DNA of 64,000 nt, from assembly GCA_017406985.1 (NCBI GenBank), contig JAFQXL010000004.1, forward strand, positions 185,708 to 249,707, in the 5' to 3' direction. The notes under the pieces are model-generated. The model did not search any database, was not told where the DNA came from, and was given only the letters and a program-made list of their open reading frames with translations. Position numbers and translations under genes: made by a program. The DNA comes from Candidatus Saccharimonadota bacterium. GTDB taxonomy: Bacteria; Patescibacteriota; Saccharimonadia; Saccharimonadales; Saccharimonadaceae. This document shows positions 27,870-55,828 of this stretch, in pieces (positions within the stretch are counted from its first letter, which is position 1; every line of letters begins with the position of its first letter).

Positions 27870-27875
27870 ACTATA

Positions 27876-27884
27876 ATTTTAACA
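27876..27884 (-). promoter_or_regulatory. Extended -10 (TGT-TAAAAT), leaderless type, divergent
   Basis: The box ends six bases before the ATG at 27869. It faces away from the histidine kinase promoter 29 bases further on. Confidence 0.6.
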
Positions 27885-27912
27885 TATTTTTTGTGTTTTT
27901 CTAAAGTTTTTA

Positions 27913-27921
27913 TGCTAAAAT
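27913..27921 (+). promoter_or_regulatory. Histidine kinase extended -10 (TGC-TAAAAT), leaderless type
   Basis: The box ends nine bases before the ATG at 27931; no ribosome binding site is visible. Confidence 0.6.
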
Positions 27922-27930
27922 ATAAACAAG

Positions 27931-38393: not shown

Positions 38394-39563
38394 TTAATTA
38401 TTTCCTGTCAGCCAGTCCCAAATATTTTCGAAGAAAGATTTTTCATTCTTCGGAAGTTCAGTTTCTTCGACTTCTTTAACTTCTTCGCTCGAACTTGAGG
38501 ATTCATTATTTGTCGCCGGGCTAACTTGTTCCGCTTGGACAAGAAGGCGATAGCGAGACGTTCCGAGCGGCCAACAAGTAATTAAAGTTAAAATCGGCTT
38601 ATCGCCACTATAGGCGAGAGACTGGACATCGTTTGGCTCGACGGTTTTACTACCCGTCATTTTATAAGTATAACGCACTTTATTATAATCTATATAAATT
38701 AAGTCTCCCTCGACGAGTCGCTCAAGTCCAGAAAAGATAAACTTATATTGGTTTGAGCTATAAATATCGCCGGCGGAATGACCAGTAATAACGGTATTTC
38801 CGATTTGCCCCGGATAGGCGGACGCGCCCGGAACCATAAAATGCGCAACACCGTTCATCATCGCTTGATTTATCGAAGTAGTATCATTAGAGATTCCGAA
38901 GTGGACCGGAACATCGACGTTTAATTTCGGAATCATTAACTTATTCGTATCCGAAACAGCAGTCGAGACGGTCGGATCAATCGCGGAAATGTCGGAGCCG
39001 TCGCTATTTCCTGGCGCAACATAAGCCATAATCGGCGCAAAAATTAAACGGTTATATTGTAAGAATAAAATCAGGAGGACTACAAAAACTCCGGCAAAAA
39101 TCGGAATGAATTTTCGATGTTTTTTCGGAAGCTTAAAACGACTATCGGCTTTTCTTTGGATGTTTTCTCTTAAGGTCGAAGCGATTTTATCGTTATCGGT
39201 CTCCCCCGGATTTAGCGCTTCGGCGTCTAGACGTTCTATATCTTTTTTCGAACGAGCATCTTTTAAGCGTTCCGTTTCGATATAATTTTTAGCTGCTTTC
39301 GAATAATAATCACTATAATATTTCTGATAATAGTTCTGCCAAGCGGAATGATAGCGCTGGAGATCTTGGCTTCCGATATTGATTTGAGAATTTTTATAAG
39401 TTCCGGTTTGATTAGAAGTTTGAGACGGTCCTTGGGGTTGTCTTGCTTCAACATTAAAATTAGAGCTCGAAGAATAACTTTCTAAAACTTTTCTTCGCGC
39501 AATCTCGGCGGCAGTCATTCGCTGACGCTCATCAGAATTAAGCCCACCGGAATTTTCGTCCAT
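38394..39563 (-). CDS. Sortase (class D/E-like transpeptidase)
   Basis: This protein of 389 residues carries 150 cytoplasmic residues (tyrosine- and asparagine-rich), one membrane helix (151-170) and a C-terminal sortase domain. The catalytic histidine is at about residue 262 in VITGHSAGD, the cysteine at 330 in TLITCWP and the arginine near 339. Sortases link proteins with LPxTG-type signals to the wall. Candidate substrates in this window are the VPDTG adhesin (49694-52069) and the LPTSG protein (58644-59030). The unusually long N-terminal region has no known role. The start follows TGA-TATAAT by six bases. Confidence 0.88.
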   Translation of the reverse strand: MDENSGGLNSDERQRMTAAEIARRKVLESYSSSSNFNVEARQPQGPSQTSNQTGTYKNSQINIGSQDLQRYHSAWQNYYQKYYSDYYSKAAKNYIETERLKDARSKKDIERLDAEALNPGETDNDKIASTLRENIQRKADSRFKLPKKHRKFIPIFAGVFVVLLILFLQYNRLIFAPIMAYVAPGNSDGSDISAIDPTVSTAVSDTNKLMIPKLNVDVPVHFGISNDTTSINQAMMNGVAHFMVPGASAYPGQIGNTVITGHSAGDIYSSNQYKFIFSGLERLVEGDLIYIDYNKVRYTYKMTGSKTVEPNDVQSLAYSGDKPILTLITCWPLGTSRYRLLVQAEQVSPATNNESSSSSEEVKEVEETELPKNEKSFFENIWDWLTGNN

Positions 39564-48375: not shown

Positions 48376-48425
48376 AAGTTCTAATAAGGTTGGTGGTGAG
48401 CTTTTGTACATTGGAGGTGGTTTTT

Positions 48426-49634
48426 ATGTTTAATATCGACAAAGAACTCGAAACGTTTCAGAAGTTAAACTATGATGGTTGTGAAGAGACAATGAGCAAG
48501 GAAAAAGCGCTCGGTTTCTACATCCCGGTTTCTCAGAAGTATTTTAAAGAGAAAGCGGAGGGACACATTACGGAACAGACAAGTGAACAGGCGATGAAGA
48601 AAATCAAGGACGATTTCTTCGGAACCTGCTATCGTCTGAAGAAGGACGAGCTCGGAGACGATTTCTTTAAGAACCGGCGAAGAGTCGCGGAATTTTATGA
48701 ACACCGTGGGCAGATGCTCGGAATCGATACCCGTTTTATTTTAATAAAGATGGACGGGGACGAGATTTTCGACAAGTGGGTTGAGGCGTTTTGGCTCAAG
48801 GTCGAGCCGCTACTCTTAAATCCGGCGCTCGGAGAATGGATGTTCGCGGCAGATATGACGAAGTCGGAGATGTTCTGGAGTTTTCTGTCTGGTTCAGGCG
48901 GATATCTTGCGCTTGAGACGGCATATCGTTGGGGTTTCGACCCGGTCGGCGTTTTTAAGCGCGCTTCGGACGAGGACCATCTTTCGACTTGGACTTACCG
49001 CGACGAGGGATATCTCTTTACGAAGTGGCGCGATGCGCAGTTCATGGAACAGATTCTTGGAGCATCCAAGATTCTCTCGCTCGGCGCCGGTGGAATGCCG
49101 GAAATTCGGCGGACGGGATACTTAAATAGGTATACGCTCGAGTCTCAGCAGTTCTTCGCCTGTGACAGGGATCCGAGAATCGATTTCGATTTCCTGATGA
49201 GTGATTTTTCGCCGGAAGACCGCGCGAAGATTGACTATCGTCCGGTCGACATTACGACGATGTTCCGCGAGCTTAACTGTTATAAGGGGCAGTTCGACTT
49301 AGTTTATACTAAGGGGACGATTTCCTTCATGAAGGATGCGCTGATGCCGATTGCGAAAGCGTCGCTCGAGCTGCTTGAGCCTGGCGGAAAGTTCATGTTC
49401 GACATGCAACTCTTACATCACGTGATGGCGAGAGATGCGCTCTACTTTGGATGGGGCGGCGGAGATTCTGTCGCAAGAATTGAGCTTTTGCCGTTTACGG
49501 AAGCGACCGATTTTGTCTATAAGTCGCTTGGTGTAATCGGAATTTCCGAGGAACAGATTTCAGAGCCGGTGATTATGCGTGATCCGATTCATGGAGATCC
49601 GTTCGGAATGAACATTATTGTAACTAAGAAATAA
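48426..49634 (+). CDS. SAM-dependent methyltransferase-like protein of unknown target
   Basis: The 402-residue protein has an N-terminal helical region of about 210 residues without recognised motif and a C-terminal class I methyltransferase fold: motif I ILSLGAGGMPEI, acidic residue in ACDRDPRID, and FDLVYTKGTISF followed by LEPGGKFMF. The ATG at 48426 has GGAGGTGG at ideal distance; an in-frame start 36 bases earlier lacks a site. Codon choice seems to differ from neighbours, with more AAG for lysine and more C-ending codons, by eye. A strong terminator follows. Confidence 0.72.
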   Translation: MFNIDKELETFQKLNYDGCEETMSKEKALGFYIPVSQKYFKEKAEGHITEQTSEQAMKKIKDDFFGTCYRLKKDELGDDFFKNRRRVAEFYEHRGQMLGIDTRFILIKMDGDEIFDKWVEAFWLKVEPLLLNPALGEWMFAADMTKSEMFWSFLSGSGGYLALETAYRWGFDPVGVFKRASDEDHLSTWTYRDEGYLFTKWRDAQFMEQILGASKILSLGAGGMPEIRRTGYLNRYTLESQQFFACDRDPRIDFDFLMSDFSPEDRAKIDYRPVDITTMFRELNCYKGQFDLVYTKGTISFMKDALMPIAKASLELLEPGGKFMFDMQLLHHVMARDALYFGWGGGDSVARIELLPFTEATDFVYKSLGVIGISEEQISEPVIMRDPIHGDPFGMNIIVTKK

Positions 49635-49693: not shown

Positions 49694-52069
49694 TTATTCT
49701 TCTGGTAGTTTTGCGAACTTCCTTAAGGAGAAGGAGACCGCGAAACCGAGCGCGAAGACGGCGAGGTTCGCAAGGATAAAGCCTTGAGAGAGGACAACCG
49801 AAGCGAAAATCTGATTTCCGAACGGAGTTTGAGCAATTTTACCGATAACGCCCGTGTCCGGGACGAAGACGATTTCGCCATAGACCGGAAGAATATCGAA
49901 ATCATATTCTTCGTCGTCGCTTTCCATACAGCCTTCAGCAAACGGATCTTCGTCACAGTCAACTTCTACAGGCTCTTCAGGTTCCGGTTCTACTGGCTCC
50001 ACCGGCTCTTCCGGATCTGGAATCGGAGTCGGTTCAATCGGGACGATAATTAGCTGATACTGCGCGACGAGAGTAATATCTCCCGTAACGGCCGAGTCAA
50101 AATCATAAGTTTCGCCATCTAAAGTCCAAGTGACAAATTCATAGCCGGATAATTTTGGACTTACTGGTTTTACCGCGGCGTCGCCAGAATTGACGAGGAT
50201 TGAGTTAATCGCCGAACCGCCTTGAGTATCAAAGTAGACGTGATATTGAATTCTTTCCCACTGCGCGACAAGGGTAAGGTTTTCGTTTACCGGAAGAGCA
50301 AAATTATATTTCGTATTACCGACATACCAGCCTTTAAAGCGATAACCGTCGCGAGTCGGAGCCTCTTCAGTAGCGACTTCGCCTTCTTTTATAGTTTGGG
50401 TCTCGACGTCGGAGCCGCCGTCGGTATCGAAGATGACTTTATAATAAGTCGGATCCGGAATCTTTTCCCAAACCGCAACTAAGACAATGTCTTTTGTTAT
50501 AGGAGCATCGAAGTCGTAAGTTTCGTTATTTAGAGTCCAGCCTTTAAAGAGATAACCTTCACGAGTCGGATCGGTCGGGCGAGTTGCGGATTCATATTCT
50601 TTAATACTTTGAGTCGCAACCGAGTTTCCGCCAGCAGAGTTAAAGACGGCTTTATAATAAACGTCTTTAACGCGAAGCGTATTAATTTCGTCATGAGCAG
50701 AGCTATAAGAGATTCCGCTATAACCATCACTATTTATAGTATAGAACGAGACGGTATTAGTATAGTTAATTTCGTTTTCGTCCGGCTTAATATAATAACG
50801 GAAATAAACTTTGTCGGTCCCCTTTCCGGCTTTCGAGAGTGTAATCGGGTTTTTAAGTTTAAAGCCGTCGTCCGAGCTTGCTGGTTCAGAAACGTCGAGC
50901 GGCATCCAGCTATTTAGATTATTCGGAGTATAAGAATATTCAAGATTTTCAGCGTTCAAAGGAACGAAGCCAGAAGTTTCTTGTTCAGTTTGAGGATCGA
51001 TACTACTAAGATGGGAGGCGATTTTAGTTAAAGTAATTTCATTTCCGGTATCGCGATTTGCAAGAGCGGCGGTGTATTGTAACATCTTATTATCGACGAC
51101 GGAAGAATCGAGCCTTGAGTCGGCTTGAATCGGCCATTCCATTTCAGAAATCGTAATCAGAGTATTCGCTTCGCTTGTATTTCGCTCAGCATAGAAGAAG
51201 CTTAAATCAACAACGTCGCCACGTTTTAGATCTAAATTATAATTATTGACTATTCTATTATCAACAACCGAGGTAACAGTTCCATCGGCGTTAATCGTAA
51301 AGTAGCCATCTACCGCAGAGTGGACACCGCCAATATCGAGAACGAGCTGTCCATTTAAGAATACCCAGACGTCGTCATCGCCAGAGAAGTCAAAACGTTC
51401 GTTCCCAGAAGCGGAAATCTTAATCGGGACGTTTAAGCTCGCCGTAAAGTGGAAGTTATGACCGAGAAGTTTCTGTGTCGCGGTTTTAACGTCGTCGAGC
51501 GGGAAGATTTGGCGTCCGCCATAGATATAACGGTTTGTATTTCCGTCGCGCGTAAAGGTAATTTCTTTATTATATTTAGTCGATTTTCCAGAAACTTCGT
51601 GGAACCAACGGTAAAAGTTGTCGCTCGAGACGACCGGATCATGTCCGACTACGCCACGGGACTGATAGTCAATTCCAGCGTTTTTCGAAGCGGTCGTAGT
51701 TTCATATGTCGGAATCGGCAGCCCGTCCGAGCCGAGATGGTCTTTAATAATTCCCTGCTGAAGCCCGCCGCCTTTCGAGTCATTACAGTTTCCGAATTCG
51801 AACTGGCGAGTTCCAGTCCCTCTGTTGTCACAAGAATAAGTTTGGTCAAAATAGGTAATCGGGAGGGTAATTGTGTCCGGATGGGTAGCCGAAACAAGTC
51901 CCCAGTTACTCGGGACACCGCCTCTACTATTCGCGTCAACGAGCGTAAGCGCGCGCGCAGAAAAAGTTACGGCAATAAAAGCAAGACCTAAAAAAGCCAC
52001 GACGGTAATTATCCGCGCAAGGTTAAAGATTCTGTGTTTTAAAATGATGTTTTTTATATTTTTACCCAT
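49694..52069 (-). CDS. Surface adhesin-like protein: fibro-slime domain, three InlB-type repeats, VPDTG sorting signal
   Basis: The 791-residue protein has a signal anchor (about 18-40), then a fibro-slime-type domain with FSGDDDVWVFLNGQLVLDIGG near residue 240. Three InlB B-type repeats follow near residues 475-680 (motifs GYLFKGWTL, GYRFKGWYV, GYEFVTWTL). A Pro/Glu/Val spacer, the motif VPDTG near residue 740, a hydrophobic helix and a basic tail end the chain. This is the layout of a sortase-anchored surface protein; a role in contact with a host cell is inferred. Its TTGACC-17-TATAAT promoter overlaps that of the divergent sensor operon. Confidence 0.82.
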   Translation of the reverse strand: MGKNIKNIILKHRIFNLARIITVVAFLGLAFIAVTFSARALTLVDANSRGGVPSNWGLVSATHPDTITLPITYFDQTYSCDNRGTGTRQFEFGNCNDSKGGGLQQGIIKDHLGSDGLPIPTYETTTASKNAGIDYQSRGVVGHDPVVSSDNFYRWFHEVSGKSTKYNKEITFTRDGNTNRYIYGGRQIFPLDDVKTATQKLLGHNFHFTASLNVPIKISASGNERFDFSGDDDVWVFLNGQLVLDIGGVHSAVDGYFTINADGTVTSVVDNRIVNNYNLDLKRGDVVDLSFFYAERNTSEANTLITISEMEWPIQADSRLDSSVVDNKMLQYTAALANRDTGNEITLTKIASHLSSIDPQTEQETSGFVPLNAENLEYSYTPNNLNSWMPLDVSEPASSDDGFKLKNPITLSKAGKGTDKVYFRYYIKPDENEINYTNTVSFYTINSDGYSGISYSSAHDEINTLRVKDVYYKAVFNSAGGNSVATQSIKEYESATRPTDPTREGYLFKGWTLNNETYDFDAPITKDIVLVAVWEKIPDPTYYKVIFDTDGGSDVETQTIKEGEVATEEAPTRDGYRFKGWYVGNTKYNFALPVNENLTLVAQWERIQYHVYFDTQGGSAINSILVNSGDAAVKPVSPKLSGYEFVTWTLDGETYDFDSAVTGDITLVAQYQLIIVPIEPTPIPDPEEPVEPVEPEPEEPVEVDCDEDPFAEGCMESDDEEYDFDILPVYGEIVFVPDTGVIGKIAQTPFGNQIFASVVLSQGFILANLAVFALGFAVSFSLRKFAKLPEE

Positions 52070-52077
52070 ATCTAATA

Positions 52078-52106
52078 TTGACCTTTTTTGAATAAATTAT
52101 TAAAAT
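52078..52106 (+). promoter_or_regulatory. Promoter of the sensor-CAP operon
   Basis: TTGACC (52078-52083), 17 bases, TAAAAT (52101-52106). It occupies almost the same DNA as the minus-strand adhesin promoter. Confidence 0.65.
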
Positions 52107-52107
52107 A

Positions 52108-52136
52108 ATTATAAACAAAAGCATTAAGGAGGTCAA
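52108..52136 (-). promoter_or_regulatory. Promoter of the adhesin gene
   Basis: TTGACC (52131-52136), 17 bases, TATAAT (52108-52113) on the minus strand. Its -35 box coincides with part of the ribosome binding site AAGGAGGTCAA of the divergent gene. The two -10 boxes are one base apart. Confidence 0.65.
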
Positions 52137-53465
52137 GTGCAACTAATTACGATTCTACTGGCCCTGACGGCAATTCTTACCTTTGCGTCGGGGATAGCGG
52201 CCTGGGCGGGCTCAAAAAAGACGGACAAGAAAGCGTCTAAATATTTTGCGATTTCGATGACCTTCGGGGCGGTTTGGACATTAGCAATTATGATGTTTAT
52301 CGCCTTAAAACCGGAAGATACGGCGCTGGCGCCAATTGCGATTTTCGGGATTTATATTCCGGCGATGTTTATGGACATTTGCTTAATGGTTTATTGTGGT
52401 TATCCGTTTAAACTTGTCCGCGGGTTCGGCGTAATTATGGCGATGTTCGCCGCTTTAATGTCAGGGCTTTTAATTTATGACCCGTCGATTTTATATAGTA
52501 GTTTTACTTTAAGCCACGAAGGAAATTCGGTTGCGCTTAATTTAAACTGGTTCTACATGGTCTATGCGATATTTTATTTTATAATTACTGGCGTAATTAT
52601 GCTTTCGCTCTTTCTCAGGATTAGGAAAACCCGTAATAAAAATGTTCGTGCGGGGCTAATTACCCTCGGACTGGGAATTCTGATTACCGGGACTTTTATG
52701 CTGACTTTCGATGTCGTTTTACCGATTTGGAATTATGATTTAATTTGGATCGGGGTTATGACCTTTACGATTACGATGGTTGGACATTATTATTCAATTC
52801 TGAAATATCGTTTAATTCAGCTTTCGGGACGCTGGCTAAAGGCGCTAAGTTATGCGATTATTTTAATTACGGCCGGCGCGATTTATATGCTTCTGTTTTA
52901 TATTATCTTTACGGCACTATTTAAAGTTTCGAGCCCGTCTCCAGCGATTTTCGTCTTAAACTTCTTAATGATCGCAATAGTTCTGCTACTTCTTCCGGCA
53001 ATGAACGAGCTCTCGAGTTTCGTTAGGTCGTTAATTTCGAGCGAGAGAATCGATATTGCTTACGTAACGAAAAAGTTAAATATTATGTCGATGTCGAAAG
53101 TTAATATGAACGAGCTTTCGGGTTTCTTAGCGGATCATTTACACTTCTCATACGTCGGAATTTTAACTAAAGGAAAACTTTATGGCTCGGAAGCGAAACA
53201 ACTTTCAACCGAAGAACTAAAGGCGATTTCGAACCTACCGGAGCCGAAACGCGGAATCTGGCAACAATTTAATAAAACCGTCGCCGGAATTATGTCAAAA
53301 AACGAAATTAAAGCGGTGGCGATTTTAGTCGACTCAAAAGGTAAACAAATCGGACAGCTAATTCTCGGAAAACCAGAGAGTAAAAACGGGCTAGAGAGGC
53401 GCGAGCTAATTCAGCTTGAGATGCTAATTAACTTAACTGCAGCGACAATAGATAGGAAAAAATAG
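52137..53465 (+). CDS. Truncated sensor: multi-helix membrane domain plus GAF-like domain, no kinase (copy 1)
   Basis: The 442-residue protein has about eight membrane helices in its first 290 residues, resembling the N-terminal 7TM region of some histidine kinases. A GAF-like domain of about 125 residues follows (HFSYVGILTKGKLYGSE, VAILVDSKGKQIGQLILGKP) and it stops at LEMLINLTAATIDRKK, just where a kinase dimerisation helix would begin. It has a GTG start with AAGGAGG. A paralogue lies at 54497 with the same ends (SGRWLKALSY/SSRALKVLSY, ERRELIQLE/ERRDLAQLE). It may sense a signal and work through another kinase. Confidence 0.72.
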   Translation: MQLITILLALTAILTFASGIAAWAGSKKTDKKASKYFAISMTFGAVWTLAIMMFIALKPEDTALAPIAIFGIYIPAMFMDICLMVYCGYPFKLVRGFGVIMAMFAALMSGLLIYDPSILYSSFTLSHEGNSVALNLNWFYMVYAIFYFIITGVIMLSLFLRIRKTRNKNVRAGLITLGLGILITGTFMLTFDVVLPIWNYDLIWIGVMTFTITMVGHYYSILKYRLIQLSGRWLKALSYAIILITAGAIYMLLFYIIFTALFKVSSPSPAIFVLNFLMIAIVLLLLPAMNELSSFVRSLISSERIDIAYVTKKLNIMSMSKVNMNELSGFLADHLHFSYVGILTKGKLYGSEAKQLSTEELKAISNLPEPKRGIWQQFNKTVAGIMSKNEIKAVAILVDSKGKQIGQLILGKPESKNGLERRELIQLEMLINLTAATIDRKK

Positions 53466-53468
53466 TCA

Positions 53469-54482
53469 ATGGCAGCAGCGGCAGCAGCAAAAATGATTAG
53501 ACAGACGAGAATGACAATCCTTTTGTCGGTTAATGCGGTTGCGATTTTAATTGCTGGAGTCTTAGTCGCTTCGGCGATGGGCTTCGCGGGGAGCGGAGAC
53601 CTCGACGTCGTTTCGGAGTATTCCGACGAAATCGACGGCTCGGTCGAGGAAGTCGATTTAGGCGAGGGAGAATCGGCCTTTGTTCAAGGAAACGTTACAG
53701 TAACCGACGAAAACGGAAACACCGTAACAGTAAAGCCGGCGGCGCCGAACTCGACGACAGATGCTGGAGAAACCACAAATTCGAACGGACAGGCGACTGG
53801 CGGAAACGTTCCGGCAGGGGAGCTTTGGAACGAGACCTCGATGACGATTTATCAATCAGCAGACAAGGACATTTGTATCGACGACAGCCTACCTGGGTAT
53901 TCAAGAATGTATTGGCAGTCTTCGAATAAAAATGTAATAAAAAGTTTCTATAAAGAGGCAAGGTCTTCGCTCGGTTATAATTCCTCGAAATGCCGTTATC
54001 CGGTTATCGTGGGGACCGGAAAGACAACGATTACCGCCGGAACTTACGACGGTTCAAGGCGTGATAAAATCGAGATAACAGTTGTCGCGGTTCCGATCGA
54101 CCAATGGAAAGACGAAGTTCTAAAGCTCGTTAATAACGAACGCGCAAAAAATGGATTACCGGGACTTGCTTGGGGTTCAAGTACAGCGTCAGCTTCAGAA
54201 ACTAGGGCAAGAGAACTGGTCTCGAAATATGCACATACCCGTCCGGACGGTTCAGAATGGAAGACAGTCCTAAATATTCCTGAGGGAAATTACGCCGGAG
54301 AAAACATCGCGGCGGGCGCAGGCGTACCGTCCCCGTCGACAGTCGTTAACGCTTGGATGAATTCGGCATCACACCGCGCAAATATCCTAAATTCAAACTT
54401 TAGATATATGTCAGTCGGGATTGTCTTCGACATAAATTCTGCGAATAAGATTTATTGGGCACAGATATTTTCAAGCTATTAA
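53469..54482 (+). CDS. Membrane-anchored CAP (SCP/PR-1-like) domain protein
   Basis: After one N-terminal helix (residues about 15-38) this 337-residue protein has a low-complexity linker with Asn/Thr/Gly, a middle domain resembling bacterial Ig-like folds (TMTIYQSADKDICID, GKTTITAGTYDGS) and a C-terminal CAP domain of about 125 residues. CAP hallmarks are LVNNERAKNGLPGLAW, the histidines in YAHTRPDGSEW and ASHRANILN, and GENIAAG. Bacterial CAP proteins are exported and of unsettled function. It lies between the two truncated sensors, 3 bases after the first. Confidence 0.85.
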   Translation: MAAAAAAKMIRQTRMTILLSVNAVAILIAGVLVASAMGFAGSGDLDVVSEYSDEIDGSVEEVDLGEGESAFVQGNVTVTDENGNTVTVKPAAPNSTTDAGETTNSNGQATGGNVPAGELWNETSMTIYQSADKDICIDDSLPGYSRMYWQSSNKNVIKSFYKEARSSLGYNSSKCRYPVIVGTGKTTITAGTYDGSRRDKIEITVVAVPIDQWKDEVLKLVNNERAKNGLPGLAWGSSTASASETRARELVSKYAHTRPDGSEWKTVLNIPEGNYAGENIAAGAGVPSPSTVVNAWMNSASHRANILNSNFRYMSVGIVFDINSANKIYWAQIFSSY

Positions 54483-54496
54483 AAAGAAGGGATAAA

Positions 54497-55828
54497 ATGC
54501 AACTGAAGAATTTCATTATGATACTTAGCGCGATAACAATGCTCCTTTCCGGCTTCTGTATCCTTGTCGGCTCGCGTAAAAAAGAACGTAAGTTTACGAA
54601 ATTTTATTTCTTGTCGGTATTTTTCGGAACGATTTACACAATTTCAATTTTAGCTTTCTTGAATCTTCCTTTGAACGCCGGAACAGCGGTTAAATATTTA
54701 GGTTATGGGATTTTTCTCGCGCCGGTCTTAATGGATATATTCCTGCTTTCATATATTTTATATCCGTTTAAACTTTTTAGAGGCTTCTCGGTTTTCCTAG
54801 CAACGCTATTTTTCCTGTTTATTTCGTTTATTTTAACTTTCGATACGGCGGATTTTTATAACGGGTTTAGTCTTTCGACCGACGGAAACAGTTTTAATAT
54901 TGTTTCTGGACCGATTTATCTTTCTTATATTCTTTTCTTCGTTATTTCTTCGGTTTTTATGATTATCGGACTACTTCTTCGAGCAAAACAAATCCGCAGT
55001 CTTAACACAAAACACGGACTTATTTTCTTAACTATTTCCGGAGCTTTGCTTAGAATTTTAATGGTAGTTTTCGGGATTATCTTACCGTTTATAAAGTTCG
55101 AGTTAATCTATCTTTCGCCGATTATGCTCTCTTTAATGGTAATTTTAGATTATTACGCAGTTTTAAGGTTTCAGATTTTAATGCTCTCTTCTCGGGCGTT
55201 AAAAGTTTTATCTTATGTAATTCTGGTGACGACGGCGGGAGCGGCTTATATGTTAATTTTCTACGCAATTATTACGTTCCTCTTTAAAATTCGCGGACTC
55301 TCGACCGAGATTTATATTTTAACCTTTATCATGGTAACGATTTTACTCTTAATCTTACCGATTATGAGCGAGGTCTTACATTTTATTCGTTCGCTCGTCT
55401 TAAAGGATCAAGTCTATCTCGCCTATTTACTGAAGAAAATGAATAAAATGTCCGGAAAAGTCGATGCCGACGCGCTCGCGGAGTTCCTTGCCTCAAATCT
55501 ACATTTTAATTATGTCGGAATCGTTATCGGAAAAAAAGTTCACGGTTCTAAATTAGAAGAGTTTTCGGAGTTCGAGATTTCCGAGCTTAACGCTTTAGCA
55601 GAGCCGGAACGCGGAGTTTGGCAAAAAATCGACGCCGGAACTCAAAAAATTTTAGATGAACATAAAATTAAAGCGGTCGCGGCGATGTTCGACGCGAAAG
55701 GAAATGTTTTTGGACAGATTTTAGTCGGAGAGCCGACCGGAAAAACAGGGTTCGAACGCCGAGACTTGGCGCAGCTCGAACTTGTTGTTAACTTAGTATC
55801 AGCGATGATTGATTCCAGAGCAAAATAA
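54497..55828 (+). CDS. Truncated sensor: multi-helix membrane domain plus GAF-like domain, no kinase (copy 2)
   Basis: This 443-residue paralogue of the protein at 52137 has the same helix pattern and GAF-like end (LHFNYVGIVIGKKVHGS, AAMFDAKGNVFGQILVGEP), again stopping before any kinase domain. AAGAAGGG precedes the ATG at 54497; an ATG at 54455 would lie inside the CAP gene. The stop codon abuts the uvrB stop with no spacer. Two copies around a CAP gene suggest a duplicated sensor unit that may form a heterodimer. Confidence 0.72.
   Translation: MQLKNFIMILSAITMLLSGFCILVGSRKKERKFTKFYFLSVFFGTIYTISILAFLNLPLNAGTAVKYLGYGIFLAPVLMDIFLLSYILYPFKLFRGFSVFLATLFFLFISFILTFDTADFYNGFSLSTDGNSFNIVSGPIYLSYILFFVISSVFMIIGLLLRAKQIRSLNTKHGLIFLTISGALLRILMVVFGIILPFIKFELIYLSPIMLSLMVILDYYAVLRFQILMLSSRALKVLSYVILVTTAGAAYMLIFYAIITFLFKIRGLSTEIYILTFIMVTILLLILPIMSEVLHFIRSLVLKDQVYLAYLLKKMNKMSGKVDADALAEFLASNLHFNYVGIVIGKKVHGSKLEEFSEFEISELNALAEPERGVWQKIDAGTQKILDEHKIKAVAAMFDAKGNVFGQILVGEPTGKTGFERRDLAQLELVVNLVSAMIDSRAK

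Follow-up and report, generated by a model that had tools for sequence, protein, structure and literature searches.

A compact, very probably bidirectional promoter between a large surface protein gene and a 7TM-CAP operon in Saccharibacteria

The divergent genes bioA and bioB share a short intergenic region in which their promoters overlap and the repressor BirA has its operator. Prokaryotic bidirectional promoters combine elements of opposite strands in one short sequence, which often separates divergent genes, and polymerase binds them one way at a time. By the definition of Warman, Grainger and colleagues, their start sites diverge on opposite strands at a distance of 7-25 bp (PMC12825309, PMC10268837), and in the commonest published form a single -10 element is shared, with starts 18 bp apart. 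bioA/bioB is one of the five pairs tested (PMC12825309); these five E. coli promoters displayed no polymerase competition at basal activity, but did so once one direction was strongly activated, and cell-to-cell variation fell, rather than rose, under interference (PMC12825309). The literature that we searched, whose partial coverage makes this weak evidence, yielded no start-site maps for Saccharibacteria, and no precedent for the overlap of a -35 box with a Shine-Dalgarno sequence at divergent genes.

The window analysed here, a 64-kb stretch of DNA taken as a whole, comes from a 731-kb (0.73 Mb) Saccharibacteria genome, the nearest named relative of which is RGIG5046 from the roe deer rumen. 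Its minus strand encodes a large surface protein of 791 amino acids (49694-52069), hereafter the adhesin, which has a signal-peptide-like N terminus, a PA14/fibro-slime domain, InlB-type repeats and a C-terminal VPDTG sorting-like signal. The genome encodes two sortases, one of them inside the window (38394-39563), and together these features bear out the original prediction that the minus-strand gene specifies a sortase-anchored adhesin. Divergently, on the plus strand, lies a gene with a GTG start for a membrane protein assigned by Pfam to HisKA_7TM (52137-53465; the sensor gene below), followed after a gap of 3 nt by the gene for a CAP/YkwD-type secreted protein (53469-54482) and by that for a second 7TM protein, a paralogue with 38% identity to the HisKA_7TM protein (54497-55828); both are probably part of the same operon. 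While the two paralogues and the CAP protein thus agree with the predicted operon of two membrane sensors plus CAP, the 'sensor' half of that description fared less well, as Pfam recognises no kinase domain in the 7TM proteins. No DNA-binding regulator was recognised among the adjacent genes with Pfam or NCBIfam. A further gene, with a weak methyltransferase-like match (48390-49634), belongs to a family often located between the adhesin and the 7TM gene in relatives (G013, G014); here the adhesin lies between it and the 7TM gene, which suggests a local rearrangement.

The putative promoter of the sensor-CAP operon comprises a -35 box TTGACC (52078-52083, plus strand), whose complement GGTCAA falls inside the adhesin leader, and a -10 box TAAAAT (52101-52106), with a 17-nt spacer and a match to the consensus at 10 of 12 positions. 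The putative adhesin promoter, on the minus strand, comprises a -35 box TTGACC (52136-52131) and a -10 box TATAAT (52113-52108), likewise with a 17-nt spacer and matching at 11 of 12 positions. The two together span 59 bp, with the -10 boxes adjacent, without overlap, and symmetric around the single base that separates them (52107), so that the mirrored arrangement of TTGACC-17-TAAAAT and TTGACC-17-TATAAT had been predicted with all coordinates exact. Equally accurate was the proposal that one -35 box doubles as part of the ribosome binding site of the opposite gene: the minus -35 box has two bases (52131-52132) in common with the Shine-Dalgarno sequence AAGGAGG of the sensor gene (52126-52132, plus strand), the GGAGG of which precedes nearly all orthologues. 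Predicted start sites are 52113 for the sensor operon (plus strand, 7 nt past the -10 box, giving a 24-nt leader) and 52101 for the adhesin (minus strand, from the position of the -10 box, giving a 32-nt leader). The distance between these starts, on opposite strands, would be 12 bp, and the transcripts would diverge without overlapping. Another plus-strand candidate, TTGAAT-16-TATAAA (52088-52115), was rejected, as its -10 box is without the final T and its TTGAAT is missing from G112. Ahead of the adhesin ATG, AAAGGTCAA was considered as a candidate Shine-Dalgarno overlap; this is plausible in two relatives (G189, G090), but the spacing is approximately 13 nt in the window and more than 20 nt in G049.

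Set against the described systems, the element likewise holds promoter elements of opposite strands within one short sequence, and the predicted start spacing of 12 bp here (9-12 bp in relatives, from box positions) falls within the published range. It resembles bioA/bioB in its divergent genes, overlapping promoters and short intergenic region, and differs from it in that no repressor and operator are evident. Where the definition has key -10 positions overlapping reciprocally on the two strands, the -10 boxes here are symmetric and adjacent, a geometry similar to the 10-bp start-spacing class of PMC12825309. Unlike the commonest published form, with its shared -10 and 18-bp spacing, this element has near-consensus -35 boxes both ways, one of them nested in the leader that carries the ribosome binding site of the opposite gene. 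What is new beside the known bidirectional promoters is thus the combination of -10 boxes that adjoin without being shared, a full -35 box in each direction, and the placing of one of these -35 boxes inside the opposite ribosome-binding-site leader.

The mirrored pair is more than a chance occurrence, as judged by statistics drawn from the window, from genome searches and from stretches of sequence. It is the best overlapping pair in the 64-kb window and the sole one with a summed score above 19, the next scoring 19. When the 67-bp intergenic region was shuffled 20,000 times with dinucleotides preserved, an equal pair, taken as both promoters matching at least 10 of 12 positions, a sum of at least 21 and -10 boxes abutting or overlapping, arose once. 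The pattern TTGACC-N40-58-GGAGGTCAANTG had one match each in eight of 174 genomes of the genus, every time directly upstream of the sensor gene, while a reversed control pattern had no match in these 174 genomes, and among 393 sampled genomes of the order the pattern itself appeared in no other genus. Inside the coding sequence of the adhesin lies a second promoter-like pair on opposite strands (51216-51264); G112 does not conserve it, and it was rejected, serving as an example of chance. The window contains another short divergent intergenic region, of 61 bp (27870-27930), flanked by a histidine kinase gene and a gene without assigned function; this region has an extended -10 element (TATGCTAAAAT), not -35 boxes.

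Of the relatives that have the locus, the closest is G112 (its stretch is also labelled L081); gene order there is identical, and the 59-bp core is retained at 55 of 59 positions, against 38% identity at fourfold-degenerate sites of the sensor gene. The corresponding values for G049 are 47 of 59 and 24%, most of the changes falling in the plus spacer. All four of the -35 and -10 boxes, as well as most of the minus spacer, are kept in both relatives, and the plus spacer drifts. A 22-bp block, TAAAATAATTATAAACAAAAGC (52101-52122), does not differ between G000, G112 and G049 despite near-saturation of the fourfold sites nearby, and it reaches past the -10 boxes, beyond what these would need.

Homologues of the sensor gene were present in 136 of the 174 genus genomes, and the sequence upstream was inspected for 93 copies. 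Loci were classed as adhesin-adjacent when a homologous adhesin started within about 72 bp on the opposite strand (G000, G112, G049, G090, G158, G168, G189 and G081); each of them has both putative promoters, the neighbouring minus-strand genes being adhesin homologues with 30-81% identity. A minus promoter matching at least 10 of 12 positions at the ribosome-binding-site position was found in seven of these eight loci and in none of 79 others (Fisher's test, 1.4e-9, a value inflated by ignoring relatedness). On the sensor gene tree the mirror label needs a minimum of only about five changes, all within one half of the genus. The mirror layout, whose conservation had been proposed as a check, is seen in nine loci when the window is included, with a span of 59 in six and 61-63 in three and a minus spacer of 17 in eight; among the eight adhesin-adjacent loci the span is 59 in five and 61-63 in the rest, the sixth locus with 59 being G116, whose adhesin has decayed. 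From box positions, the predicted starts are 12 or 9-10 bp apart in the mirror loci. On the plus strand TTGACC is kept in G112, G049, G090, G116, G118, G168, G189 and G081, with TTGATT in G158, and a TAAAAT or TATAAT-like -10 box lies 17-18 bp from the -35 box in all mirror relatives. On the minus strand TTGACC occupies the -35 place in all eight adhesin-adjacent loci and in four of the 79 others (G009, G014, G015, G118), and the -10 box matches at five or six of six positions in seven of the eight, G090 having a weak one (TATACA at 16 or TACACT at 18). Across the genus a good -35 box accompanied seven of nine plus promoters that had no TG extended -10 element, compared to 20 of 84 that had one (p=0.002), indicating that TTGAC works as a -35 box in these bacteria.

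Natural losses of the adhesin were found in two pairs of sister genomes. G189 has the adhesin adjacent and its sister G187 has none adjacent; between them GGTCAA has become GGTTAA and the minus -10 box TATACT has become TATGCC, but G187 retains TTGAC-18-TATAAT and GGAGG despite the decayed minus boxes. Similarly, the adhesin is missing beside the sensor gene of G118, which also has no minus -10 box at the proper spacing, whereas its sister G116 has both promoters beside an adhesin frame that has decayed through stops and frame changes (locus L095, about 2480-2835); the intact promoters of the latter are explicable as the mark of a recent loss. The minus promoter thus tracks the adjacent adhesin and decays without it in sisters, which argues that it drives the adhesin. 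These comparisons show both putative promoters to be under selection, the minus one in dependence on adhesin adjacency.

An alternative explanation is that the plus promoter alone is real, the minus -35 box being a by-product of the Shine-Dalgarno sequence, TATAAT a by-product of A+T richness, and the adhesin transcribed from elsewhere. The occurrence of TTGACC over the ribosome binding site in the four loci without an adjacent adhesin lends this something, and indicates that Shine-Dalgarno context accounts for part of its conservation. Yet most relatives carry different bases after GGAGG, conservation of GGAGGTCAA purely as a ribosome-binding-site leader was ruled out by the 79-locus control, and neither the seven-of-eight against none-of-79 contrast for the full minus promoter nor the decay seen in both minus boxes once the adhesin was lost, but not in the Shine-Dalgarno sequence, would be expected; we consider this reading very improbable indeed. 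The TTGACC/GGTCAA arms could otherwise form an operator for a dimeric regulator that co-controls both genes, as the original prediction had suggested of these inverted-repeat ends. The mirror relatives do conserve the two arms together, and the identity of TAAAATAATTATAAACAAAAGC in three loci exceeds what the boxes require. The fixed arm spacing expected of such an operator was, however, not seen among the relatives, where the distance is 59, 61, 62 or 63 bp, and hence in different helical phase, while each arm stays 16-18 bp from its own -10 box. When each core is compared with its own reverse complement, identity falls mainly in the -35 and -10 boxes and not in the spacers, and the plus arm survives in three genomes without an adjacent adhesin (G118, G014, G188), as a -35 box would. 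The suggestion of a regulator site was consequently not upheld, and we regard it as very unlikely.

The element had further been predicted to hold mutually exclusive promoters that act as a surface-state switch, with exclusion strong enough that a single cell would express one of the two, the adhesin or the 7TM-CAP operon, and not the other. The overlap of two promoters stands, and from the size of polymerase they would exclude each other momentarily; near-consensus promoters would favour occupancy and competition, and Saccharibacteria do differentiate into attached and swarmer cells by regulation that is unknown (PMC11665869). Lasting exclusion was not supported, given that the E. coli promoters compete only when strongly activated. 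Steric exclusion at each binding event is by itself negative coupling and not memory, no DNA-binding regulator was recognised nearby, and in the E. coli analogues basal competition is absent and interference reduces noise (PMC12825309), which speaks against the switch; it appears improbable. A bistable switch is not supported, as it would need something further and nothing of the kind was recognised at the locus. We hold it equally improbable that the element is a regulated exclusion device, in which one direction would be strongly activated, and the other thereby silenced, by a signal acting in trans (from the 7TM proteins, for instance, in attached as opposed to swarmer cells), so that adhesin-rich and sensor/CAP-rich surfaces alternate.

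We therefore favour, with considerable confidence on comparative grounds, the reading of the 59-bp element as a compact bidirectional promoter for the housekeeping sigma factor, common to the adhesin (minus) and the 7TM-CAP operon (plus). Polymerase would bind in either orientation, each having its own complete -35 and -10 boxes. The adhesin -35 box would lie on the strand complementary to the Shine-Dalgarno leader of the sensor gene (GGAGGTCAA-GTG), so that a single DNA segment would serve the translation of one gene and the transcription of the other, an economy fitting a 0.73-Mb genome. As there is room for just one polymerase, strong firing one way should lower firing the other way; at ordinary firing rates, by analogy with E. 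coli, both genes would be expected to be expressed within the same cell. The real start sites, their activity, their competition and the benefit of coupling the adhesin to the 7TM-CAP module are what we infer from these patterns. Comparative genomics on its own reveals selection maintaining a bidirectional promoter here, the natural losses acting as mutants in which departure of the adhesin led to decay of the adhesin's half of the promoter only. Since how Saccharibacteria regulate the change between attached and free cells is, according to published work, completely unknown (PMC11665869), the linking of an adhesin with a 7TM-CAP module in one element offers a concrete and testable entry point.

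The same homologous gene pair is also found divergently arranged with a wider gap in G102, G126, G088 and G085; there the genes are 113-156 bp apart and, in contrast to the mirror loci, have no mirrored overlapping pair but a separate predicted promoter near each gene. In the genus's other half, the place of the adhesin ahead of the 7TM-CAP pair is taken by a set of genes, VTC - DUF4956 - Cthe_2159 (carbohydrate-binding), as at L046 (4847-9651) and similar loci. With either the adhesin or the Cthe_2159 gene set as its neighbour, the 7TM-CAP pair thus repeatedly adjoins surface-binding proteins.
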